DNA of 64,000 nucleotides, from assembly GCF_002272795.1 (NCBI RefSeq), contig NZ_MLAT01000001.1:124001-188000 (forward strand), read 5' to 3'. Source of the stretch: Helicobacter sp. 13S00482-2 (GTDB lineage Bacteria; Campylobacterota; Campylobacteria; Campylobacterales; Helicobacteraceae). Below are positions 13,390 through 26,084 of the stretch, piece by piece. Positions within the stretch are counted from its first letter, which is position 1. Each line of letters begins with the position of its first letter. Under the pieces are notes generated by a model. The model had not been told where the DNA came from, ran no database searches, and worked only from the letters and a program-made list of their open reading frames with translations. The position numbers and the translations under genes were made by a program.

Positions 13390-13410
13390 TGAGATGGCCA
13401 GGCCATCTCA
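13390..13410. terminator. Perfect palindrome between ferritin and a convergent gene
   Basis: A 21-base perfect inverted repeat, arms TGAGATGGCC and GGCCATCTCA around a single A, lies in the 25-base gap between convergent genes. As RNA it would make a stable hairpin usable in both directions, although no T run follows. Probable bidirectional terminator or mRNA stabiliser. Confidence 0.55.
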
Positions 13411-13890
13411 TCTCCGAAATATAAAACGGAAAAATCTTTTAAATTCTTTATTGACTTTAGCAAAATCAAAATTACTATTTTTTACACCCACAAAAACACC
13501 TTTCATTTCACTTCTCTTTGAAGCATCATCTAGATAATTTCCTTTTATGAGTCTCTCATAATTATCTCCCTTATCAGAATCATTTAAAAATTTGAATCCA
13601 TATCCCAAATCAAAATCTTTCAAAAAATCTAATTTGTGATCTTGCGATAAATTTAAATAATCATAGCTAGGTTTGTATTGATACCCTGAGGATAAATATG
13701 CATTAATAGAATCTATTTGATGTGAAAAAAGAATACTAACCCCGCTTCTATTTGTAGTGATATTTTTATTACAACCTGATGCTTTTCCATCAGATAAAGT
13801 GCAATAAAGTTGCTTATCATTACTTGATGAGTGATTTTTCTGTGCATAAAGACTGAAAGCTAATGACAGTATAATCAATATTTTATTCAT
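13408..13890 (-). CDS. Secreted protein of unknown function with paired-Cys loop
   Basis: A 160-aa product with a signal peptide (MNKILIILSLAFSLYAQ) and no recognised domain. The start is taken at the ATG ending at 13890, which has GGAG upstream; an extended frame reaches 13935. Near the mature N terminus it has YCTLSDGKASGCN, very like the VCTKLPDGKSSC segment of the outer membrane protein encoded 110 bases upstream on the same strand. The end is highly basic and aromatic (FKRFFRFIFRR). It might be an exported partner of that porin-like protein or a relic of a paralogue. Confidence 0.65.
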   Translation of the reverse strand: MNKILIILSLAFSLYAQKNHSSSNDKQLYCTLSDGKASGCNKNITTNRSGVSILFSHQIDSINAYLSSGYQYKPSYDYLNLSQDHKLDFLKDFDLGYGFKFLNDSDKGDNYERLIKGNYLDDASKRSEMKGVFVGVKNSNFDFAKVNKEFKRFFRFIFRR

Positions 13891-13999
13891 TATCATCTCC
13901 AAAATGAATACTTTATTGATTATAGCACAGGACAATCAAGAAAAAAATCAACAAATGCTAAATAAAATATCCCATAACTCCCTATCAATAGGCTTTCAA

Positions 14000-14881
14000 T
14001 CAAAAAAGTAAATCTAATGCCATATAAAATGAAGTTGAGCGGAGTGTATCTTTTCCATATATGTCAATTTGTTCAGATGTATTACTGCCAATTTGTGTTG
14101 CAGAACTCATTTGATAAGCGATATCATAATAATCATATAATCTCACTTTGCAACCCACATCAATGCGTATTCTCCGTGCGATTGTCTGAGAAACTCCAAA
14201 ATTCATATATCCACCTTTAATATTCACGTTTGGGGAATCTTTTTCTTTGAGTTTATTGAACATTTCTCCAAAATTATAATCATATCCCAAGCCCAAAAAT
14301 ATACCAAAAGGAGAGCGACCTTTCGTAAAATCAAAAAGATAATCTATGCCCGCAGAAGCAGTATAATAGACACTATCTTCAAAATCTACAAATGGAGCAT
14401 ATTTATGTGTATTTAGTTTTAGGTTCCCTGTTGTAAAACTAACGATAAATCTAAGACCATTTCTAGGAGTGAAAAAATAGTTATAACCAAATCGTCCTCC
14501 ATAACCAACTGATGATTTGCCACTATAACTTGAAGTTTTGATGTTATTTTGGGTGGTTGAGTATCCACCTGGTTTGACATAAGATCCATGACAAGAGGAT
14601 TTGCCATCAGGTAGTTTGGTGCAAACCAGATCTGTTTCAGTAGGGGTCAGAGTTACTCTTGTTGTCTCTTGATCTAATTTTAATTCATCATCATAGCAAG
14701 TATATGAGAAAATACCACCCATAAAAAATCTACTTTTATCTCTAGCAATACTTGCATTCCTCATTGTTTTGTCTGAAAAATAATTAGACTGAGTATCTGG
14801 AGTCCCAAGAAGATCTTGAGCATTTGTTATTACAGATAAGCAAAATATACTAGATAAAATAATCAATGTTTTTTTGTCCAT
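14000..14881 (-). CDS. Helicobacter-type outer membrane beta-barrel protein
   Basis: A 293-aa outer membrane protein with a signal peptide ending VITNAQ and a C-terminal strand SFYMALDLLF ending in Phe, the BAM recognition signature. Alternating-residue strands (GGRFGYNYFF, LRFIVSFTTG, FGIFLGLGYDYNFG, IDVGCKVRLYDYYDIAY) suggest an eight- to ten-stranded barrel of the Helicobacter OMP (Hop/Hof/Hom-like) type. A surface loop carries two cysteines around LPDGKSSC. No poly-nucleotide switch is visible in the gene or just upstream. Ligand or adhesin role cannot be told. Confidence 0.82.
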   Translation of the reverse strand: MDKKTLIILSSIFCLSVITNAQDLLGTPDTQSNYFSDKTMRNASIARDKSRFFMGGIFSYTCYDDELKLDQETTRVTLTPTETDLVCTKLPDGKSSCHGSYVKPGGYSTTQNNIKTSSYSGKSSVGYGGRFGYNYFFTPRNGLRFIVSFTTGNLKLNTHKYAPFVDFEDSVYYTASAGIDYLFDFTKGRSPFGIFLGLGYDYNFGEMFNKLKEKDSPNVNIKGGYMNFGVSQTIARRIRIDVGCKVRLYDYYDIAYQMSSATQIGSNTSEQIDIYGKDTLRSTSFYMALDLLF

Positions 14882-16606: not shown

Positions 16607-17154
16607 TCTGATCTCTTTTTGGCACAAAACTGAACTGCTTGAATATTTTTGCCTGATCGATTGATGAGTTTTTTATCATAATATAAAATATCAAAATTCC
16701 AAAACATCTCTTGAAGCTCTCCTTCCTGAAGGATTTTTTCTTCATGAATATTAGCAGGATAACTATCATTTTTAATAAAGGTTTCCATCAAGAAGACACC
16801 TCCAACTTTCAAACCCTTTTTGATACCTTCAAAAAGTCTTCGATCTAAAAAATAAAAATCCAAAATCACCTCATAATGATCAGGTATTATTTCATAATGA
16901 TCTAAATCCAAACACAAAGGAATAATATTGGGTATATTCACAAGCTTATTAATAGCTACAGGTGAAATGTCTATACACTCACAAACAAAACCTCTATCTG
17001 CTAAAAACTTCGCATTCCTCCCATTCCCACAAGCAATGTCCAAAACTCTCCCTTTAGGTAAAGTCTGTACACATTTTACTAAAAATTCACTCTGTGAGTT
17101 TGGCATAAAATCTTTTAGATGTTTCTCATCCCACTTGAGCATATCTTCCTTCAT
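16603..17154 (-). CDS. Class I SAM-dependent methyltransferase (TehB/UbiE-like)
   Basis: Rossmann-fold methyltransferase of about 183 aa. The SAM-binding motif I reads VLDIACGNGRNAKFLADRG, motif II region CIDISPVAI, and a later GGVFLMETF segment marks the end of the core fold. The start is the ATG ending at 17154, behind GAGGAA. This size and pattern resemble tellurite-resistance TehB and small thiol or ubiquinone methyltransferases; the substrate is not predictable. It is translationally coupled to the MATE exporter, so the methylated compound could be exported, which is only a guess. Confidence 0.8.
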   Translation of the reverse strand: MKEDMLKWDEKHLKDFMPNSQSEFLVKCVQTLPKGRVLDIACGNGRNAKFLADRGFVCECIDISPVAINKLVNIPNIIPLCLDLDHYEIIPDHYEVILDFYFLDRRLFEGIKKGLKVGGVFLMETFIKNDSYPANIHEEKILQEGELQEMFWNFDILYYDKKLINRSGKNIQAVQFCAKKRSE

Positions 17155-17235
17155 TTTCTTCCTCAAATGTTTTAAAAATCATACCCCTAATTCAATGCAT
17201 TCTACCTGAGAAATTACTATCCTTATAAATAACCT

Positions 17236-18240
17236 TTATCGTTTTATAAGCTTGTATTTTAGCCATCTAAGTCCTGTATATGAGTGATAAATAACTCCTA
17301 ATGGAATATAGCGCAATAACAAAAAACTAATTCTAGTTATTTTTGACATTCTTGAGTCATTCATAAGAATGCAAATAAGACCATAAATCTCTAATTTGAT
17401 TTTATCATCAGGTATTTTTTGATTTTTGGCTACATAAATACTCAACAATAAATAGCGAATATATTTTTTAAAAACAGGAGTTAAAACTACTGTGGGAAAC
17501 TCTTTGTGTTGATTAAAAAATTCATTCATATCTTTTATTCTTGCTAAAGGAATGCTAAAGTCTATTAAATTGCTTGAAGCATTTGGATTATTCTGACGAT
17601 AAAAATAGTAGGGATCTTGAATATAGGAGATTTTTTTTGCCAAACACATGGTTTCAATAAAAAAAGGGTTATCTACCCAAGAAGCACCTTTTGCCTGAAT
17701 AAAGTTGATTTTATTTTCAAATAAAAATTCCCTCTTATAAACCCCTGCCCAAATACTTGGATGATAGAATAACAAAGAAGGAAAATCCTCTATCTTAAAA
17801 ATTTCCTTGGGAGGTTTGATGTTTTGTGTCCATTTAGGGATAACCTGATAACTATCTTTGAGATCTTGTGCGTCAAAATACTCATAATAAGCACATTTAA
17901 GAACATCTAAATCATCTCTTTTGGCCACCTTTACAAGCATCTCATACATTGAAAAATCAATAAAATCATCAGGTTCTAAAATCGCTATATATTCTCCTAA
18001 TGCCTTATGAAGACCAATATTGCAACTATCACCATATCCTGAATTTTCTTTATCAACCACTTCAATTCTTTTGTCATTTTTGGCATATTCTAAAACAATA
18101 GCCAAAGAATCATCACTTGAGCCATCATTGACACAAATTATCTGTATATTTTTAAGGGTTTGAAAAACAACGCTATCTAGACATTGCCTTAAATATTTTT
18201 CTACATTATAAATAGGAATAATGATACTCAAATCAATCAT
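17236..18240 (-). CDS. Glycosyltransferase family 2
   Basis: GT-A fold glycosyltransferase, 334 aa. The nucleotide-binding start IIPIYNVEKYLRQCLDSV, the motif VNDGSSDDS and the metal-binding AILEPDDFID (in place of the usual DxD) are in the first 105 residues. The C-terminal third has aromatic and basic segments that may sit on the membrane. It is the last gene of the surface glycan cluster, overlapping the upstream transferase gene by four bases. Donor and acceptor sugars are unknown. Confidence 0.88.
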   Translation of the reverse strand: MIDLSIIIPIYNVEKYLRQCLDSVVFQTLKNIQIICVNDGSSDDSLAIVLEYAKNDKRIEVVDKENSGYGDSCNIGLHKALGEYIAILEPDDFIDFSMYEMLVKVAKRDDLDVLKCAYYEYFDAQDLKDSYQVIPKWTQNIKPPKEIFKIEDFPSLLFYHPSIWAGVYKREFLFENKINFIQAKGASWVDNPFFIETMCLAKKISYIQDPYYFYRQNNPNASSNLIDFSIPLARIKDMNEFFNQHKEFPTVVLTPVFKKYIRYLLLSIYVAKNQKIPDDKIKLEIYGLICILMNDSRMSKITRISFLLLRYIPLGVIYHSYTGLRWLKYKLIKR

Positions 18241-19130
18241 TTTATCGCCATATTAATGATTTTATCAGCCAAATTTTTTATCCACAATCTACGTTTGGAC
18301 CCTATGGGAAATAAAATCTTTAGGATAATTTTTTTTGGGAATTGTTTGAATCTGAACTTCAGAGTTTTTTGTTCCCTAAGATAATCTTTTATCATTTTTC
18401 TTCGTTTTAACATCGCTTGTTTTTGAACAAAAAAATAAGAATCCTTCTCCCACCAAGAATTCCCATAGTGATGTGCCAAAACCGATCTATGAGTTAAATC
18501 CTCTAAAATTGGAGTCTTTCCATAAGAAATGGGAGAGAAATAATCTTTGGGATAGATTTTGACCCTATCTGCAATAATAGGTTCTTTAAATCCAAAAATA
18601 TAACCCTTTGACTCATTAAAACTGCCATTATCTAGGAAATATAATGCAGTGATTTTTGGACCTATCAATAATTCTTTACGTGCTAAATAAAGTTTTCCTA
18701 AATTTTCATAAATCTCGCACATAAATTTAGCCAAATTGGAGTTAGGTTTACTCGCCATAGAGTGACTTGTATAGCCTCCTTTTTGGTTTGATTCTATTCC
18801 AATAATAGCATCATATTCTTCTGATATGCTAAGCTCATCAATTAAAATATCCAAACCTTCTTTAGAGACAATCTCTATATCTCCATCTAAATAAATCCCC
18901 CCATACTCCTTTAAAACCCACCACCTAAAATAATCACTCAAGAACACTCCATCTTGAAGTTTAACCATTGCCCGAACATAAGAATTCACATCCAAAGGGA
19001 GATTGGTTGCATTCCAATTTCTGAATTCATAACCTTTAAGTTTTTCTTTCCAGTTCTGAAAATACTCCTGATAAATATCCTCCTCCCCTCCAAATCCAAA
19101 AAATATACGGTGCACAACCTTCAAAGACAT
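18237..19130 (-). CDS. GT32/OCH1-like glycosyltransferase with DxD motif
   Basis: Transferase of the family often found in capsule and LPS loci, about 297 aa. The DxD motif lies in EYGGIYLDGDIEIV, and the N-terminal HRIFFGFGG segment matches the family. I place the start at the ATG ending at 19130, behind GGAG, which gives a ten-base overlap with the upstream gene; a longer frame to 19178 would overlap more and lacks a ribosome site. A C-terminal basic region could bind membrane. Part of the glycan cluster. Confidence 0.82.
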   Translation of the reverse strand: MSLKVVHRIFFGFGGEEDIYQEYFQNWKEKLKGYEFRNWNATNLPLDVNSYVRAMVKLQDGVFLSDYFRWWVLKEYGGIYLDGDIEIVSKEGLDILIDELSISEEYDAIIGIESNQKGGYTSHSMASKPNSNLAKFMCEIYENLGKLYLARKELLIGPKITALYFLDNGSFNESKGYIFGFKEPIIADRVKIYPKDYFSPISYGKTPILEDLTHRSVLAHHYGNSWWEKDSYFFVQKQAMLKRRKMIKDYLREQKTLKFRFKQFPKKIILKILFPIGSKRRLWIKNLADKIINMAIK

Positions 19131-20404
19131 TTTGACTCCAGAACAGCCTTCATTCTCTCGGCCATTTCTTGCACACATTTTTTCCAGCTAAATTTTTTGG
19201 CTTGATTGATTCCCTTCAAAGATAGCTCTTGTGCAAAAGATGAATCTAAATAAATTTTTTTAAAAGCTTCTTTCAATGCCAAAGAATCACTAGGACTAAT
19301 AAGTATCCCGCCATCGCCAACAACTTCAGGAATAGAAGTGACGTTAGAGGCTATGAGTGGAGCACCACAAGACATCGCCTCAAGTGCAGGTAATCCAAAC
19401 CCTTCATAAACAGAAAGATATACACTACACAAACTATGTGAATATAAATTTGACAAATCCCCATCATCAACATAACCTGCACGAATGATTTTATTTTTAT
19501 AAACTCCTAAATTGTGAATTTTATCTTCTAGCTTTTGGATAAACTCTTCCCAATGACCCCCAGCAAGAACAAAAACAACATCTTGGATTTCATTTTGTTT
19601 GATAAATTCTATAAAATTTTCAACTATAAATATTACATTCTTTCTAGGTTCAATCGAACACAGACTAAAGATATATTTTTTATCTTTAGGAATGTGATAC
19701 TTTTCTCTGATAAGATGATTTTTCCTCTCATTTTTATCAGGATAAAAGTTTTCATTCACTCCTAAATGAGCTACGCTGATCTTATGAGGATCTATCTGAG
19801 GACAATGCTTAATAAAATCTTCTTTGGTATAAACTGAATTAGCAAAATAGTAATCCTCTGAATTTAAAGAGTTAAAGAGCTGATAAAACCAGCTTTTTTT
19901 CGAGACGAAATATCCTTCACATACTATAGGTATGAGATCGTGCAATAAAGTGAATTTGATAATCCTATCATTATCTTTAAAAATCTGAGGAATTTTTTCC
20001 ATAGGAGAGAAAAAGACATAATATTCATCTTTATCTAAAGCAAGAGTATCAAAAACACTGAATATTTTTTTTAATATAAGCAACATTAAAGTAAAAGATT
20101 TCGCAAAAAACATCTGCACAATATTTTTAGGAAAAAACAAAGAACGCAAATAAAACCCGTAAGAAACCCACTGATTGGGTTTAGAATACAAAAAGATATT
20201 TTGGATATCCCTGAGTTTATCATCAGATTGAGAATATTTTTTCAAAGCATAAAGAGATTTAATATCACAATAAAGCAACACTTCAAAATTTTCATTTTGC
20301 AACATTTCTAAAAATAAATTATAAGCACTAAAAAATATTCCTGATCTAGAGATATTTTTCTTTGCAATATTTCCAAGCACTGTGGCATCAAAAATGACTT
20401 TCAT
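19121..20404 (-). CDS. Glycosyltransferase family 4 (GT-B fold)
   Basis: A 427-aa GT-B transferase. The C-terminal nucleotide-sugar binding domain shows [19 protein letters not shown] and the EX7E region [21 protein letters not shown] with [16 protein letters not shown], hallmarks of mannosyl- or glucosyl-type retaining transferases. The N-terminal acceptor domain is longer than usual. A gap of 114 bases separates it from the polymerase gene, so it may start a second transcript of the cluster. Confidence 0.88.
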
Positions 20405-20518
20405 TGTTTTAATCCTTCATATTTAAAAAAATATTTTCTTAATAACCCTGAATAACTCGTGTACAAATTAGAATATTGTTTTGAAATGATCATTCAGACA
20501 ATTGTAAAAACAAAATAA

Positions 20519-21940
20519 TCATAAACTATTCTCTCGCTTTGGCTTCCTACAAGCAAGTCCTAAAACTAATCCAGAGAGAATAAAAAACGAATAATCAAGC
20601 TTACTATAAGCCAATATTACATCAAAAAACATAAAAACAATCAAGCCTGTTAAAAAAACCAAAAAACCAAAAATTGGAATATCTAAACACATTGAACCCG
20701 TAATCTTTGTAGCAGACAAACAAATTCTAATTAGCACAAAAATCTGAATGACTATAAGACTAAAACCAATCACACCTAATTCAAAAATCAAAGAAACAAT
20801 CATATTGTGCATATGAGTGTGTGGAGCTAAATCTAAATTTTCAATACTGGAAACATGATACATATGTTGTTTAGATTCAATATCAACATTTCGTGAAAAA
20901 TTTTTATAAAAAAATTGTGCCCCAAATCCATTTGGTCTAAAAGGATTTTTTGAAATATATATCAGTGTCGCTTTAAGCAAAGATATTCTATCAAGTGCAT
21001 TTATTTCAAAATTAAAACGACTATCAAGCTTATCTCCGCTAAATTTAGAGCACTTATAACTTGTTAAATTATTGAAACAAAACACATCGAATCTACCCAT
21101 CTCAGCAGGCGCATAACTCCAAACGATACCAATATGCTCAATCATTTTTCTAAAGTCAAGTCGTTCTCCAAGATGAGGACTACCAAAATACCCTCCCACA
21201 CTAACAAGCACAATCCCTCCAAATACAAGACAAAGAAGACTTTTTTTCAATATATGTCTAAACAAAATTAGTGATACCAGCAACATTGCAACAACAGAAA
21301 AAATAAAAGCTCGTGTACCGTTGGCATACATTGCAAAAAGACTCACAAGCAAGAGCAAGACCCCCAGAAATCTCCATCTCGCTCTAAAATAAACTATCAT
21401 TACTAAGCTCAAAGCAAATGCAAGGATTAAAAATAAACCATAAGGGATTATAGGCATGTCTCCAAACCCAACAAAACGTTCTATTGTGGGAGTAGAAGAA
21501 TTTGTAGCATAATGAAAGATTGTCGACAATGGTTGTAAAAAAACAACAAAACTAAAACAGAAAAACAAAAATTCCAAAGCTTTTTGAGTTAAGTTTTTCA
21601 TCACAAAATAAAACATCAAAGCCAGAAACAAAGGTGCTATCAAAAAAATACTCACAGCTCTAAATGTAGCTTTGGCATCAAAAGCAAAATACATTGATGC
21701 CAAAGCTACTACAATCACACCAATATGGCTTAAAATCCAAAGCTTTATAGGATAAAATTCTTTAATAAAGCCCCGCAAAGAAAATTCATAATGATAAAAA
21801 CAGATCACTACTCCCAGAAAGCAAAACATTACCGCATATCTAAAATCAACTATCTCAAATAAAAAATACGCAAATACCATCAAAAAAGCAATCGTATAAG
21901 ATTTTATATTATCAAAAACCTTTATTTTAGATTCTAACAT
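20519..21940 (-). CDS. O-antigen ligase/polymerase family membrane protein (WaaL/Wzy-like)
   Basis: Multi-spanning inner membrane protein of 473 aa with about ten to twelve hydrophobic segments and one long periplasmic loop (roughly residues 265-375), as in the Wzy_C family. The loop ends in LDLAPHTHMHNMIVSLIFELGVIG, matching the conserved H-x-H-N-x8-E-x-G type motif of O-antigen ligases. It should join or polymerise glycan chains in the periplasm. It starts three bases after the phase-variable glycosyltransferase gene, so the two are cotranscribed. Confidence 0.85.
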   Translation of the reverse strand: MLESKIKVFDNIKSYTIAFLMVFAYFLFEIVDFRYAVMFCFLGVVICFYHYEFSLRGFIKEFYPIKLWILSHIGVIVVALASMYFAFDAKATFRAVSIFLIAPLFLALMFYFVMKNLTQKALEFLFFCFSFVVFLQPLSTIFHYATNSSTPTIERFVGFGDMPIIPYGLFLILAFALSLVMIVYFRARWRFLGVLLLLVSLFAMYANGTRAFIFSVVAMLLVSLILFRHILKKSLLCLVFGGIVLVSVGGYFGSPHLGERLDFRKMIEHIGIVWSYAPAEMGRFDVFCFNNLTSYKCSKFSGDKLDSRFNFEINALDRISLLKATLIYISKNPFRPNGFGAQFFYKNFSRNVDIESKQHMYHVSSIENLDLAPHTHMHNMIVSLIFELGVIGFSLIVIQIFVLIRICLSATKITGSMCLDIPIFGFLVFLTGLIVFMFFDVILAYSKLDYSFFILSGLVLGLACRKPKRENSL

Positions 21941-21943
21941 TTT

Positions 21944-22738
21944 TTACCCACCAAAATAGAAAAACTGTTTTTTGATGCCATAATAAATGTAATGAATAAA
22001 ATAATACACACTTGAAAAAAAACTTAATTTTTCTACCTGTCTATAGACCTCCCATTGACGTTTAGCAGATTTAATTTTATTATAAGTATCACTACCCTTA
22101 CGAATGCGAATAGAAGCTAGAAAGTACTTGGGGGGGGGGGCAAAGCTATGATATTGTTTGAGTATTTTTAACCAAATTTCATAATCATGACGAATATTAC
22201 CACTACAAAGTTTTCCTAAAACACTGCTGTCATAAACGGCTGTAGAATTTGCTATATCGCAAGTTTTAAGAATGTCTTCATAGCTAATATCACTTTTGGG
22301 GACAAAAGAACCAAGTTTATTGTTTTTTTCATCAATGACAAGATATGAGGTGTGTGAAAATGAGATATTTTTTGATAACATAAATTGTATTTGGATTTTG
22401 AGTTTATCTTTTTCCCAAACATCATCTGAATCTAAAAAAGCAATAAACCTACCTTGTGCTTTCTCTAAGGCAATGTTACGAGCTTCAGAAACACCGACAT
22501 TTTTATGTAATGCAATACAAGAAATTCTACTGTCTTTCTTAGAAAATGCCTCAATAATACCCACACTTCCATCATTTGAAGCATCATCAACAACCAAACA
22601 CTCAAAATCTTCAAAACTTTGAGAAAGAACCGAATCAAGTGTAAATGCTATAAAATCAGCTGTGTTATAGCTAGGAATAATAATTGACACAAGTGGTTTC
22701 TTCTCTTCTTTATGAATATTAAAATCGCTACAATTCAA
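21944..22738 (-). CDS. Phase-variable glycosyltransferase family 2 (ON frame)
   Basis: A 264-aa GT-A transferase with IIIPSYNTADFI, VDDASNDGS (residues 50-58) and FLDSDD (101-106). Translation starts at a TTG, five bases after AAGGA. Codons 200-203 (Ala-Pro-Pro-Pro) are encoded by a run of eleven C residues. With 11 C the frame is open to the end; with 10 C a TAG follows after 206 codons and with 12 C a TAA after 213, so slippage would remove the last 50-60 residues. This is the standard contingency-locus design for surface sugars in Helicobacter and Campylobacter. Confidence 0.9.
   Translation of the reverse strand: MNCSDFNIHKEEKKPLVSIIIPSYNTADFIAFTLDSVLSQSFEDFECLVVDDASNDGSVGIIEAFSKKDSRISCIALHKNVGVSEARNIALEKAQGRFIAFLDSDDVWEKDKLKIQIQFMLSKNISFSHTSYLVIDEKNNKLGSFVPKSDISYEDILKTCDIANSTAVYDSSVLGKLCSGNIRHDYEIWLKILKQYHSFAPPPKYFLASIRIRKGSDTYNKIKSAKRQWEVYRQVEKLSFFSSVYYFIHYIYYGIKKQFFYFGG
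22130..22140. repeat. Homopolymeric tract of 11 G (C on the coding strand)
   Basis: Eleven consecutive G on the plus strand inside a glycosyltransferase gene, by far the longest G or C run in the window. Such tracts slip during replication and switch genes on and off. Here the number gives the ON frame; plus or minus one base leads quickly to a stop codon in both other frames. Confidence 0.93.
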
Positions 22739-22780
22739 CTTCTTCCTTACAAAATATGATCTTTTGAAAACAATCCAGCC

Positions 22781-23881
22781 CTATGCTCTTGCCTTTATTA
22801 TATCAAATAATTCTAAAATTTTTAGGATTGCTTTATCTATATCGTAATATTGATACTCTCCTAATCTGCCTATAAAATAAATATTTTTAAATCTTGAAGC
22901 TTCTTGTAAATACCTCTCATATAATTTTTTATTTTTATTATTGGGAATGGGATAAAATCTCTCCATTCCCTTCTTATATTTTCTAGGATATTCAAAACCA
23001 ACGATACTGTGAGGGGTTTTTTGATCTAAAAAATATTTATATTCAATGATTCGAGTAAAATCATAATTATTAGGATAATTCACCACTGAATTGACTTGAA
23101 AATATTCATTTTGAATTTTTCTAATATCAAATTCCAAACTCCTATAAGGTAATTCTCCATAACAATAATCAAAATATTCATCAATCCCCCCACTATAAAA
23201 TATCCTATCATACCCCTCAGTAGAAATATCTTTAAAATCTTGATTCAACCTCACTTCAATCAAAGAATTCTGAATCATCTTCTCGCACATACTAGTATAT
23301 CCTCCAAAAGGGATACCTTGAAATTTATCCTTAAAGTATCTATTATCTTTCCCTACGCACACAGGAACTCTAGCCATCACCGATGGATCAAGCTCATCTG
23401 GTTCACACTGCCATTGCTTGAGTGTGTAATGATAAAAAATATTCTGGTAAATAAAATCACTTAAAAATTTCAATTCCTGCACTTTAGAGAGTTCTAAAAT
23501 AGACACTTTACTCTCATAGTCATAAAGCCTAAGAAGTTGTTTTTCCAATTTCTTAGATAATCGCTTAGGAAAAAGCATTGATAAGGAAGTTAAATTGAAG
23601 GGCACTGGCACAAAATAACCATTGACAAAAGCTTTTACTTCGTGCATATAAGGATAAAAACGACAAAATGAATTCAGATATTCCCATACCCTATTAGAAT
23701 CTGTATGAAAAATATGTGCTCCATATTTATGAACCAAAATTCCTTCATCTTCATAATCATACAAATTCCCACCAATATGATCTCTTCTATCAATAATCAA
23801 GACTTCTTCTTGAAGTTCATTAGCCAATCGCTCTGCTAAAACAAGTCCTGATATCCCCGCTCCAACAATAAGATTTCTCAT
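22781..23881 (-). CDS. glf: UDP-galactopyranose mutase
   Basis: Flavoenzyme that interconverts UDP-galactopyranose and UDP-galactofuranose, so the cell can build galactofuranose-containing glycans. The FAD-binding motif LIVGAGISGLVLAERLA is at the N terminus and the family segments DRRDHIGGN, YGAHIFHTD and FEYPRKYKKG, YPIPN are present; 366 aa is the normal size. The ATG ending at 23881 is preferred over a GTG one codon earlier. It lies only a few bases after the antiporter gene and leads into the glycosyltransferase genes. Confidence 0.95.
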   Translation of the reverse strand: MRNLIVGAGISGLVLAERLANELQEEVLIIDRRDHIGGNLYDYEDEGILVHKYGAHIFHTDSNRVWEYLNSFCRFYPYMHEVKAFVNGYFVPVPFNLTSLSMLFPKRLSKKLEKQLLRLYDYESKVSILELSKVQELKFLSDFIYQNIFYHYTLKQWQCEPDELDPSVMARVPVCVGKDNRYFKDKFQGIPFGGYTSMCEKMIQNSLIEVRLNQDFKDISTEGYDRIFYSGGIDEYFDYCYGELPYRSLEFDIRKIQNEYFQVNSVVNYPNNYDFTRIIEYKYFLDQKTPHSIVGFEYPRKYKKGMERFYPIPNNKNKKLYERYLQEASRFKNIYFIGRLGEYQYYDIDKAILKILELFDIIKARA

Positions 23882-23885
23882 CACT

Positions 23886-25190
23886 TTAACCCAATATCAT
23901 TGCACCCACTACTCCAAATATCATCAAAGGGATATTATAAGCAATGAAAGTAGGAACGCAAGTATCCCAAATATGATTATGCTGATCATCAATATTCAAA
24001 CCAGAAGTAGGTCCCATAGTACTAGAAGAAGCAGGAGAACCAGCATCTCCTAAAGCCCCTGCAATTCCTAAAAGCAATATCGTGGCACTCATTCCAAAAC
24101 CAAGCTCTACACACAAAGGACAATAAAATGCCGCAATAACAGGAATAGTACCAAAGGAAGTCCCGATACCCAAAGTCACCAAAAGACCTATAAAAAGCAT
24201 CAAAATCGCTCCTCCGAGCTTCCCGCCAACCATATTTACAGTGCTACTCACAAGATCCCCTATAGCTCCACTCTCTTTGAGAACTTCCCCAAACCCAGCA
24301 GCAATAAGCATTACAAAGGCAATGAAAGCCATCATCTTCATCCCTTCATCAATCACCATATCCATTTCATTCCATTTGATGACCTTCCCTATGAGCATCA
24401 CAATAAGCCCAATAAATGCTCCAAAAGGAAGCGAACCTGTATAAATCTGCACACCAAAAGCTATAACTGCTCCTGCTAATGCAAAATAATCTTGCAAACT
24501 CAAATGTGCATTTTGCAATTTTTCCTCTTGTTGGGAGAAAATCTCCTCTCTATATTCTCTAGGTTTTCTATACAAAACAAGTATTGAAATCACAAGTCCC
24601 ACAACCATACTTGCTCCACCTATCCACATCACACTAGCAATATCTGAAAGTGAAACTTGTATGCCATTTTGAATCATCTGATCACGTAAGATAGTATGAA
24701 AAATGAGTCCAAAACCTACAGGTATGCAGATATAGGGTGCTTCAAGTCCAAAAGTAAGAGCACAAGAAATAGCTCTTCTGTCAATTTTAAGCTTGTTCAT
24801 CAGTCCCAACAAAGGAGGAATCAAGATCGGTATAAAGGCGATATGAACAGGAATAAGATTTTGAGAAAAACAAGCAATAAAGGCAATAAAAAAACATAAA
24901 AATATAGATCTACCATTAATCATTTTGGTCATTTTTGCGATTAAAACCTTTGTTAAATTGCCCTGAGATATGGCCACCGCTAAAGCACCAAGCAAAATAT
25001 AACTCAATGCAGTTTCAAGATTGCCTTTCATTCCAGCTATCATAATATCAACTGTTTGAATAATGCCCATACCTGATACAATCCCAGCAACTATACAAGC
25101 ACTGATAATTGATAACAAAACATTCATACGAAACAAACACAAAACACTCATCACAAAAACAGCGACCACAACAGGGTTGAATAAAATCAA
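23886..25190 (-). CDS. Na+/H+ antiporter family membrane protein
   Basis: A 434-aa inner membrane protein with about eleven or twelve membrane segments. The pattern (FGLEAPYICIPVGFGLIFHTI, IGTSFGTIPVIAAFYCPL, GIAGALGDAGSPASSSTMGPTSG) belongs to the Na+/H+ antiporter (NhaC-related) family. From memory H. pylori carries a homologue directly beside its aguB-like gene, as here, 13 bases downstream of aguB. Whether it moves protons, sodium, or an amine or amino acid linked to AguB is not known. Confidence 0.8.
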   Translation of the reverse strand: MILFNPVVVAVFVMSVLCLFRMNVLLSIISACIVAGIVSGMGIIQTVDIMIAGMKGNLETALSYILLGALAVAISQGNLTKVLIAKMTKMINGRSIFLCFFIAFIACFSQNLIPVHIAFIPILIPPLLGLMNKLKIDRRAISCALTFGLEAPYICIPVGFGLIFHTILRDQMIQNGIQVSLSDIASVMWIGGASMVVGLVISILVLYRKPREYREEIFSQQEEKLQNAHLSLQDYFALAGAVIAFGVQIYTGSLPFGAFIGLIVMLIGKVIKWNEMDMVIDEGMKMMAFIAFVMLIAAGFGEVLKESGAIGDLVSSTVNMVGGKLGGAILMLFIGLLVTLGIGTSFGTIPVIAAFYCPLCVELGFGMSATILLLGIAGALGDAGSPASSSTMGPTSGLNIDDQHNHIWDTCVPTFIAYNIPLMIFGVVGAMILG

Positions 25191-25202
25191 ATCTATCTTC
25201 CT

Positions 25203-26084
25203 CTAATCACAAAATCTTTTCAAGATATCAGCATACGCATCAATTCGTCTATCCCTTAAAAAAGGCCATACACGACGCACCTCTTCACACCTATCCATAT
25301 CAATTTCAACACTTAAAATCTCATCATCTTCAACACTTCCAAGAGCTAAAAGCTCTCCTTGTGCGCCAAATGCAAAACTAGATCCCCAGAATCTAACCCC
25401 TGAAAGAGTTCCACTAGGATCTTTTTCAAATCCTGTTCTATTGATCGCAATCACTGGAAGAGAATTTGCGACACTATGTCCTCTTTGAACTGCAATCCAA
25501 GCATCTCTTTGACGCTCCTTCTCTCTCTCATCATCTCCATCAAACCATCCAATTGCAGTAGGATAGATTAATATTTCTGCACCTTTAAGTGCCATAATTC
25601 TGGCTGCTTCAGGATACCATTGATCCCAACATATGAGCACTCCAAGCCTTCCAATACTTGTATCAATGGGTTCAAAACCTAAATCACCAGGCGTGAAATA
25701 AAACTTCTCATAAAAACCAGGATCATCAGGAATATGCATTTTGCGATACTTTCCCGCCACACTACCATCTTTTTCAAACACAACTACAGTATTGTGATAC
25801 AACCCACTGCTACGTTTTTCAAACAAAGAAGTTACCAAAACAACTCCACATTCTTTAGCTATTTTGGCAAAAAATTCTACATCTTCAGGATAATCACGAG
25901 CATAATCAAAGATATTCACATCTTCGGCTTGACAAAAATACTCCCTAGTATGCAACTCTTGGAGTAAAATAAGCTGTGAACCCTGAGCAGAGGCATCCTC
26001 TATCATTTTTCTTGTGTGTTCGATAGTAGCAATCCTATTGCCCTTAAAGCTATGCTGCAGAGCAGCAATTTTTATTTTTTTCAT
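25203..26084 (-). CDS. aguB: Carbon-nitrogen hydrolase, N-carbamoylputrescine amidase-like
   Basis: Nitrilase-superfamily amidohydrolase, 293 aa. The Glu-Lys-Cys triad is visible as Glu43 (LLQELHTREYF), Lys115 (KYRKMHIPDD) and Cys152 (ICWDQWYPEAAR). The close match to plant and bacterial AguB suggests it releases putrescine, carbon dioxide and ammonia from N-carbamoylputrescine in the arginine-decarboxylase route to polyamines. Its ATG directly abuts the stop of the acidic microprotein gene. No agmatine deiminase gene is in the window. Confidence 0.9.
   Translation of the reverse strand: MKKIKIAALQHSFKGNRIATIEHTRKMIEDASAQGSQLILLQELHTREYFCQAEDVNIFDYARDYPEDVEFFAKIAKECGVVLVTSLFEKRSSGLYHNTVVVFEKDGSVAGKYRKMHIPDDPGFYEKFYFTPGDLGFEPIDTSIGRLGVLICWDQWYPEAARIMALKGAEILIYPTAIGWFDGDDEREKERQRDAWIAVQRGHSVANSLPVIAINRTGFEKDPSGTLSGVRFWGSSFAFGAQGELLALGSVEDDEILSVEIDMDRCEEVRRVWPFLRDRRIDAYADILKRFCD

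Follow-up and report, generated by a model that had tools for sequence, protein, structure and literature searches.

A run of eleven cytosines (C11) within a GT2 glycosyltransferase gene of Helicobacter sp. 13S00482-2 is very probably a contingency (phase-variation) locus that toggles the enzyme, judging from its sequence and from its counterparts in other species. All the features of a contingency locus that are testable at the sequence level are found in this tract. The preliminary description of the window, i.e. of the whole 64-kb stretch of DNA that was analysed, had proposed phase variation by slippage at this site. The proposal is strongly supported by a comparison between species, with one genome for each: runs of C10, C11 or C15 are present at the same site in eight species of three genera. 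The gene and its parts are as follows.

22744..22748, minus strand: AAGGA, resembling a ribosome-binding site, 5 nt upstream of the TTG start (read from the sequence)
21944..22738, minus strand: GT2 glycosyltransferase CDS, 264 aa, TTG start (PF00535, E=1.4e-34)
22130..22140, minus strand (G11 on the plus strand): C11 homopolymeric tract, the putative slippage site (sequence, shuffles, same-site tracts in 8 species)
21947..22129, minus strand: C-terminal coding segment missing in the OFF frames, 61 aa (slip simulation, DSSP, conservation)

The C11 tract and the segment behind it

The run corresponds to nucleotides 599-609 of the CDS (22738-21944) and spans positions 2 and 3 of codon 200 (Ala) together with Pro201-Pro203. 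The eleven C encoding Ala200-Pro203 that had been described at this place were present on re-reading, with the minus strand as the coding strand. The tract is the sole G/C run of at least 7 nucleotides in the 64-kb window, and a run of 11 G was obtained in none of 100 dinucleotide-preserving shuffles of the whole window. As CCC represents only 42 of the 325 Pro codons (13%) in the 23 CDSs of the window, three consecutive CCC codons are not explained by codon bias.

At C11 the gene is in frame in the source assembly, and the ON state initially assigned to it was right, the 264-aa frame being open. Slips were simulated and the resulting sequences were re-translated. Tracts of 8, 11 and 14 C gave an open GT2 frame of 263-265 aa, those of 10 or 13 C a TAG stop after 206/207 codons and those of 9 or 12 C a TAA stop after 212/213 codons, i.e. 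a premature stop in two of the three registers. The stops claimed beforehand, TAG after 206 codons for 10 C and TAA after 213 for 12 C, were both recovered. The tract is located at 76% of the gene length, downstream of all the catalytic motifs; as had also been claimed, the simulated slips spare DDASNDGS and DSDD while removing the last 50-60 residues. The HDYE motif is likewise retained in the OFF products.

The AlphaFold2 model of the enzyme (pLDDT 90.2, pTM 0.88) has SpsA (1h7q) as its closest solved fold, followed by other GT-A enzymes, and among 19 homologs D105 is invariant and D106 and D185 are near invariant. The PF00535 match, the DxD-type motif with the catalytic Asp and SpsA as the top fold are those of a GT2 enzyme with a GT-A fold. 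The TuaG model NF047683 matches residues 12-258 of 264 (E=1.2e-67), and both this full-length match and the GT-A fold are shared with TuaG-like GT2 proteins; identification as TuaG was nevertheless rejected, the score of 228.2 bits being below the NF047683 cutoff of 400 bits.

The 61 residues lost in the OFF frames form a strand (206-211) and two helices (221-235 and 240-263) according to DSSP of the AlphaFold2 model. In an alignment with 12 homologs that lack the run, four residues of the window protein (R211, K221, R233 and Y245) are found in every sequence, and conservation reaches at least 80% at 15 positions. OFF products therefore lose conserved parts of the enzyme and, since these include the conserved strand and both helices, are predicted to be most likely inactive or unstable. 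The earlier suggestion that the lost part is an acceptor or membrane region is a reasonable one, given a strand and two C-terminal helices that are conserved in homologs without the run.

Because the tract is late in the gene, with the catalytic motifs upstream, a slip might alternatively alter the tail and produce a truncated enzyme with changed activity or location, as was suggested under the name of C-terminal phase variation for eight genes of Helicobacter canadensis with late tracts (PMC2823697). This is unlikely here, as the alternative tails measure ~1-20 residues, are unrelated between most species and show no conservation, whereas the segment that they replace is conserved in proteins without the tract, down to the four invariant residues. 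In H. canadensis, HCAN_0165, 0641, 0643, 0914 and others have a long G tract likewise near the 3' end of the gene, with a length mixture seen in reads (PMC2823697). Late slips in that species mostly alter a few terminal residues, however, whereas a slip in the GT2 gene costs 50-60 family-conserved residues, which makes an ON/OFF effect more likely.

Orthologs, origin and selection

When 121 Helicobacteraceae genomes, one per species, were searched with a profile, GT2 orthologs were found in nine of them, belonging to three genera. In 8/9 orthologs, a C10-C15 run is present at exactly the same site. With tract lengths taken from draft assemblies, in which homopolymer miscalling is possible, the gene is in frame in the source genome (G000, C11), G001 (C11) and G002 (C10), and out of frame in G004, G027, G109 and G105 (all C11) and in G103 (C15). 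The ON share is thus 3/8, compared to 1/3 expected under free slippage. Length and register vary among the orthologs while the gene is otherwise intact, as is characteristic of contingency loci.

The residues right after the run differ in number and kind between orthologs. Conserved flanks are found in the window's genus, HDYEIWLKIL... before the run and LASIRIR.GSDT.NK.KSAKRQW after it; this genus groups the source genome with genomes that apparently are those of Helicobacter sp. 11S02596-1, isolated from a monitor lizard (PMC5566214), and Helicobacter sp. faydin-H76. In the ninth ortholog (G102) the run is broken (C7 then ACCACC) and several frame breaks mark the gene as a pseudogene, the decayed C-terminal part of which is joined to an EpsG gene remnant (L140). 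Two further runs were seen near the orthologs: a second run of C14 at the 3' end of the G105 gene, just before EpsG (L138:2301-2314), and a C11 in a short open frame within an extra stretch between glf and GT2 in Helicobacter sp. 11S02596-1 (G002; L041/L069).

In other Campylobacterales families, homologs were retrieved from 22 genomes at E<=1e-40; the non-Helicobacteraceae loci L071-L096 are distant GT2 proteins and were used only for the structure alignment. No C/G run longer than 4 was found in the readable homologs from these families. Unlike the window GT2, these homologs lack the tract, and their sequence continues smoothly across the site (...GI.EPLA.YRI...S.SSNK...). In a tree built on the part preceding the run, the eight tract-bearing genes make up one side of a branch with a support of 100/100. 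One gain of the run, followed by its retention, would be the simplest reading of this pattern.

For ortholog pairs compared in the original frame, pN/pS was 0.20-0.53 after the tract, compared to 0.22-0.56 before it, with silent sites saturated or nearly so in most pairs. Two out-of-frame orthologs, G027 and G103, gave a dN of 0.12 and a dS of 0.34 after the tract. They are also the nearest pair (dS ~0.33) and their tracts are 4 C apart, which indicates that tract length changes faster than the flanks. Judged by these ratios, purifying selection continues to act on the original frame of the sequence after the run in OFF orthologs. This suggests that the segment is frequently read in that frame, a pattern typical of a reversible switch. 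A pseudogene status of the out-of-frame orthologs was rejected on the basis of dN/dS, except for the truly decayed G102.

Long runs are common in these bacteria. The source genome (1.9 Mb) contains 47 G/C runs of at least 8 nucleotides, two of length 8, four of 9, nine of 10, 28 of 11 and four of 12, found in or beside glycosyltransferase, GT8, type III mod, type ISP and autotransporter genes, and G runs of at least 9 occur in 121/121 Helicobacteraceae genomes searched. The GT2 tract therefore belongs to a set of runs of a kind that is usual in the group. A bias of slippage might by itself let C runs drift to about 11 without any adaptive switching, in line with the clustering of lengths at 11 whatever the frame, the many runs in every Helicobacteraceae genome and an ON fraction equal to the random expectation. 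Such a purely mutational explanation is distinctly unlikely for the GT2 tract, which occupies one codon in three genera whose silent divergence is saturated, has one origin on the tree and no equivalent in the non-Helicobacteraceae homologs read, and is followed by a segment that is under purifying selection even when out of frame.

Transcriptional or ribosomal slippage could also bypass the frame breaks and provide some full-length enzyme in every register, and a downstream frame conserved in spite of 5/8 orthologs being out of frame is the signature that it would leave as well. It is very improbable, however, as species differ in register and tract length in the way that DNA slippage predicts, and such slippage is an established process in tracts of this kind among related species. 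Finally, homopolymers are error-prone on some sequencing platforms and wrong tract lengths could make some OFF calls false, but an assembly error is highly improbable as the explanation of a tract found in 8 separate assemblies, with intact flanks for ON and OFF calls alike.

Gene neighbourhood and proposed mechanism

The tract-bearing gene is part of a block on the minus strand in which glf is followed by the GT2 gene, a Wzy_C gene and three further glycosyltransferase genes:

22781..23884, minus strand: glf, UDP-galactopyranose mutase, the upstream neighbour (TIGR00031, E=7.4e-121, above cutoff)
20519..21940, minus strand: Wzy_C gene, O-antigen polymerase/ligase-type, candidate for a polar effect (PF04932, E=9.5e-10)
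19121..20404, minus strand: GT4-type glycosyltransferase of the same gene block (PF00534, E=2e-29)
18237..19178, minus strand: Gly_transf_sug, DXD sugar-binding-type glycosyltransferase (PF04488, E=3e-08)
17236..18240, minus strand: second GT2 glycosyltransferase, without a tract (PF00535, E=5.2e-34)

Promoter and terminator scans of positions 17000-25300 gave no more matches than were obtained in shuffles. Further along the minus strand, two adjoining open frames (13408-13935 and 14000-14881) are without a Pfam match, the latter with the look of an outer-membrane protein (signal-like start, aromatic C-terminus).

The spacing of three bases between the GT2 gene and the Wzy-like gene, pointed out in the preliminary description, is real: the GT2 stop codon lies at 21944-21946 and the next ATG at 21938-21940. 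In 8/8 genomes, the start of the next gene falls in a short interval, from a few nt ahead of the last base of the GT2 stop codon to ~10 nt past this codon, the gene being Wzy_C in the window's genus and EpsG in the other two genera. The conservation of so tight a junction makes coupled translation and polarity plausible. The OFF truncation falls ~155-180 nt ahead of where the next gene starts, and a polar effect of the OFF state on the Wzy-like gene, via coupled translation, is a plausible consequence. The neighbouring glf gene suggests that the affected glycan perhaps contains galactofuranose.

If the C11 run is a contingency locus, slipped-strand mispairing at replication would add or remove C at high frequency. 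One register in three would give the whole GT2 enzyme, as in the source assembly (ON), and in the other two translation would end no more than ~14 codons after the run begins, leaving out the last 50-60 residues. The surface glycan made by the glf-GT2-Wzy_C-GT block would consequently alternate between two forms within a clone, and termination at this distance from the next gene may also reduce the translation of the latter. More tentatively, the tract may be a switch of single origin held at one codon in at least three Helicobacteraceae genera, lying in an insertion-tolerant loop, in which one slip could control sugar addition together with chain polymerisation or ligation through the joined Wzy_C or EpsG gene; we regard this wider proposal as possible rather than likely.

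Other runs of the genome and known switches

Several other runs of the source genome were noted. A G12 at G000:C22:92520-92531 (L107) splits a type III DNA methyltransferase into parts of 183 aa (PF12564) and 465 aa (PF01555) that lie in different frames, and this gene is a candidate for a phasevarion caught OFF. A G10 at G000:C85:73050-73059 (L126) interrupts a type ISP restriction-modification enzyme close to the C-terminal specificity domain and leaves it out of frame in the assembly. Six long G/C runs lie within ~12 kb at G000:C89:62000-79000 (L128), in or beside genes for a hexapeptide transferase, an AMP-binding enzyme and a formyltransferase, the last of which has its run at the 3' end of the gene, as in H. 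canadensis HCAN_0643. At two contig ends, G000:C62:570-580 and C89:570-580 (L118 and L127), C11 open frames are equal in length and offset and probably represent an unresolved repeat.

Homopolymeric switches of surface glycans are documented in related bacteria. In H. pylori, homopolymeric tracts, including poly-C, are also found in the LPS glycosyltransferase genes HP0651 and HP0379 (alpha-1,3-fucosyltransferases), HP0093, HP0208, HP0619 and HP0217 (PMC1599737). H. pylori belongs to the same bacterial family, but the enzymes are different and the tract described here is late in its gene; moreover, the presence of the HP0651 tract varies among strains of one species, whereas the GT2 tract is kept at one site in three genera. 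In C. jejuni, the LOS galactosyltransferase genes wlaN and cj1144-45 contain homopolymers whose length determines an early stop and thereby the LOS structure (PMC3397941). Those switches were followed experimentally in cells, whereas the GT2 tract is known from sequence, and the resemblance does not imply orthology. The poly-G tracts of H. canadensis vary in read data, one of them within a glycosyl transferase (PMC2823697).

No report of the GT2 tract locus was found in literature searches, and the reptile Helicobacter genome paper contains no mention of phase variation, homopolymers or LPS (PMC5566214). The proposed mechanism is familiar, being that of a homopolymeric contingency locus; the late position, in a loop, and the apparent single-origin conservation over three genera are what is unusual. 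Homopolymer switches have mostly been described at the level of the strain or species, and many of them seem to appear and disappear fast. With its apparent single origin and with species in both states, the GT2 tract is a test case for the lifespan of a hypermutable switch under selection, and the reptile-type Helicobacter, in which phase variation is hardly described, gain a concrete candidate for a surface-glycan switch.
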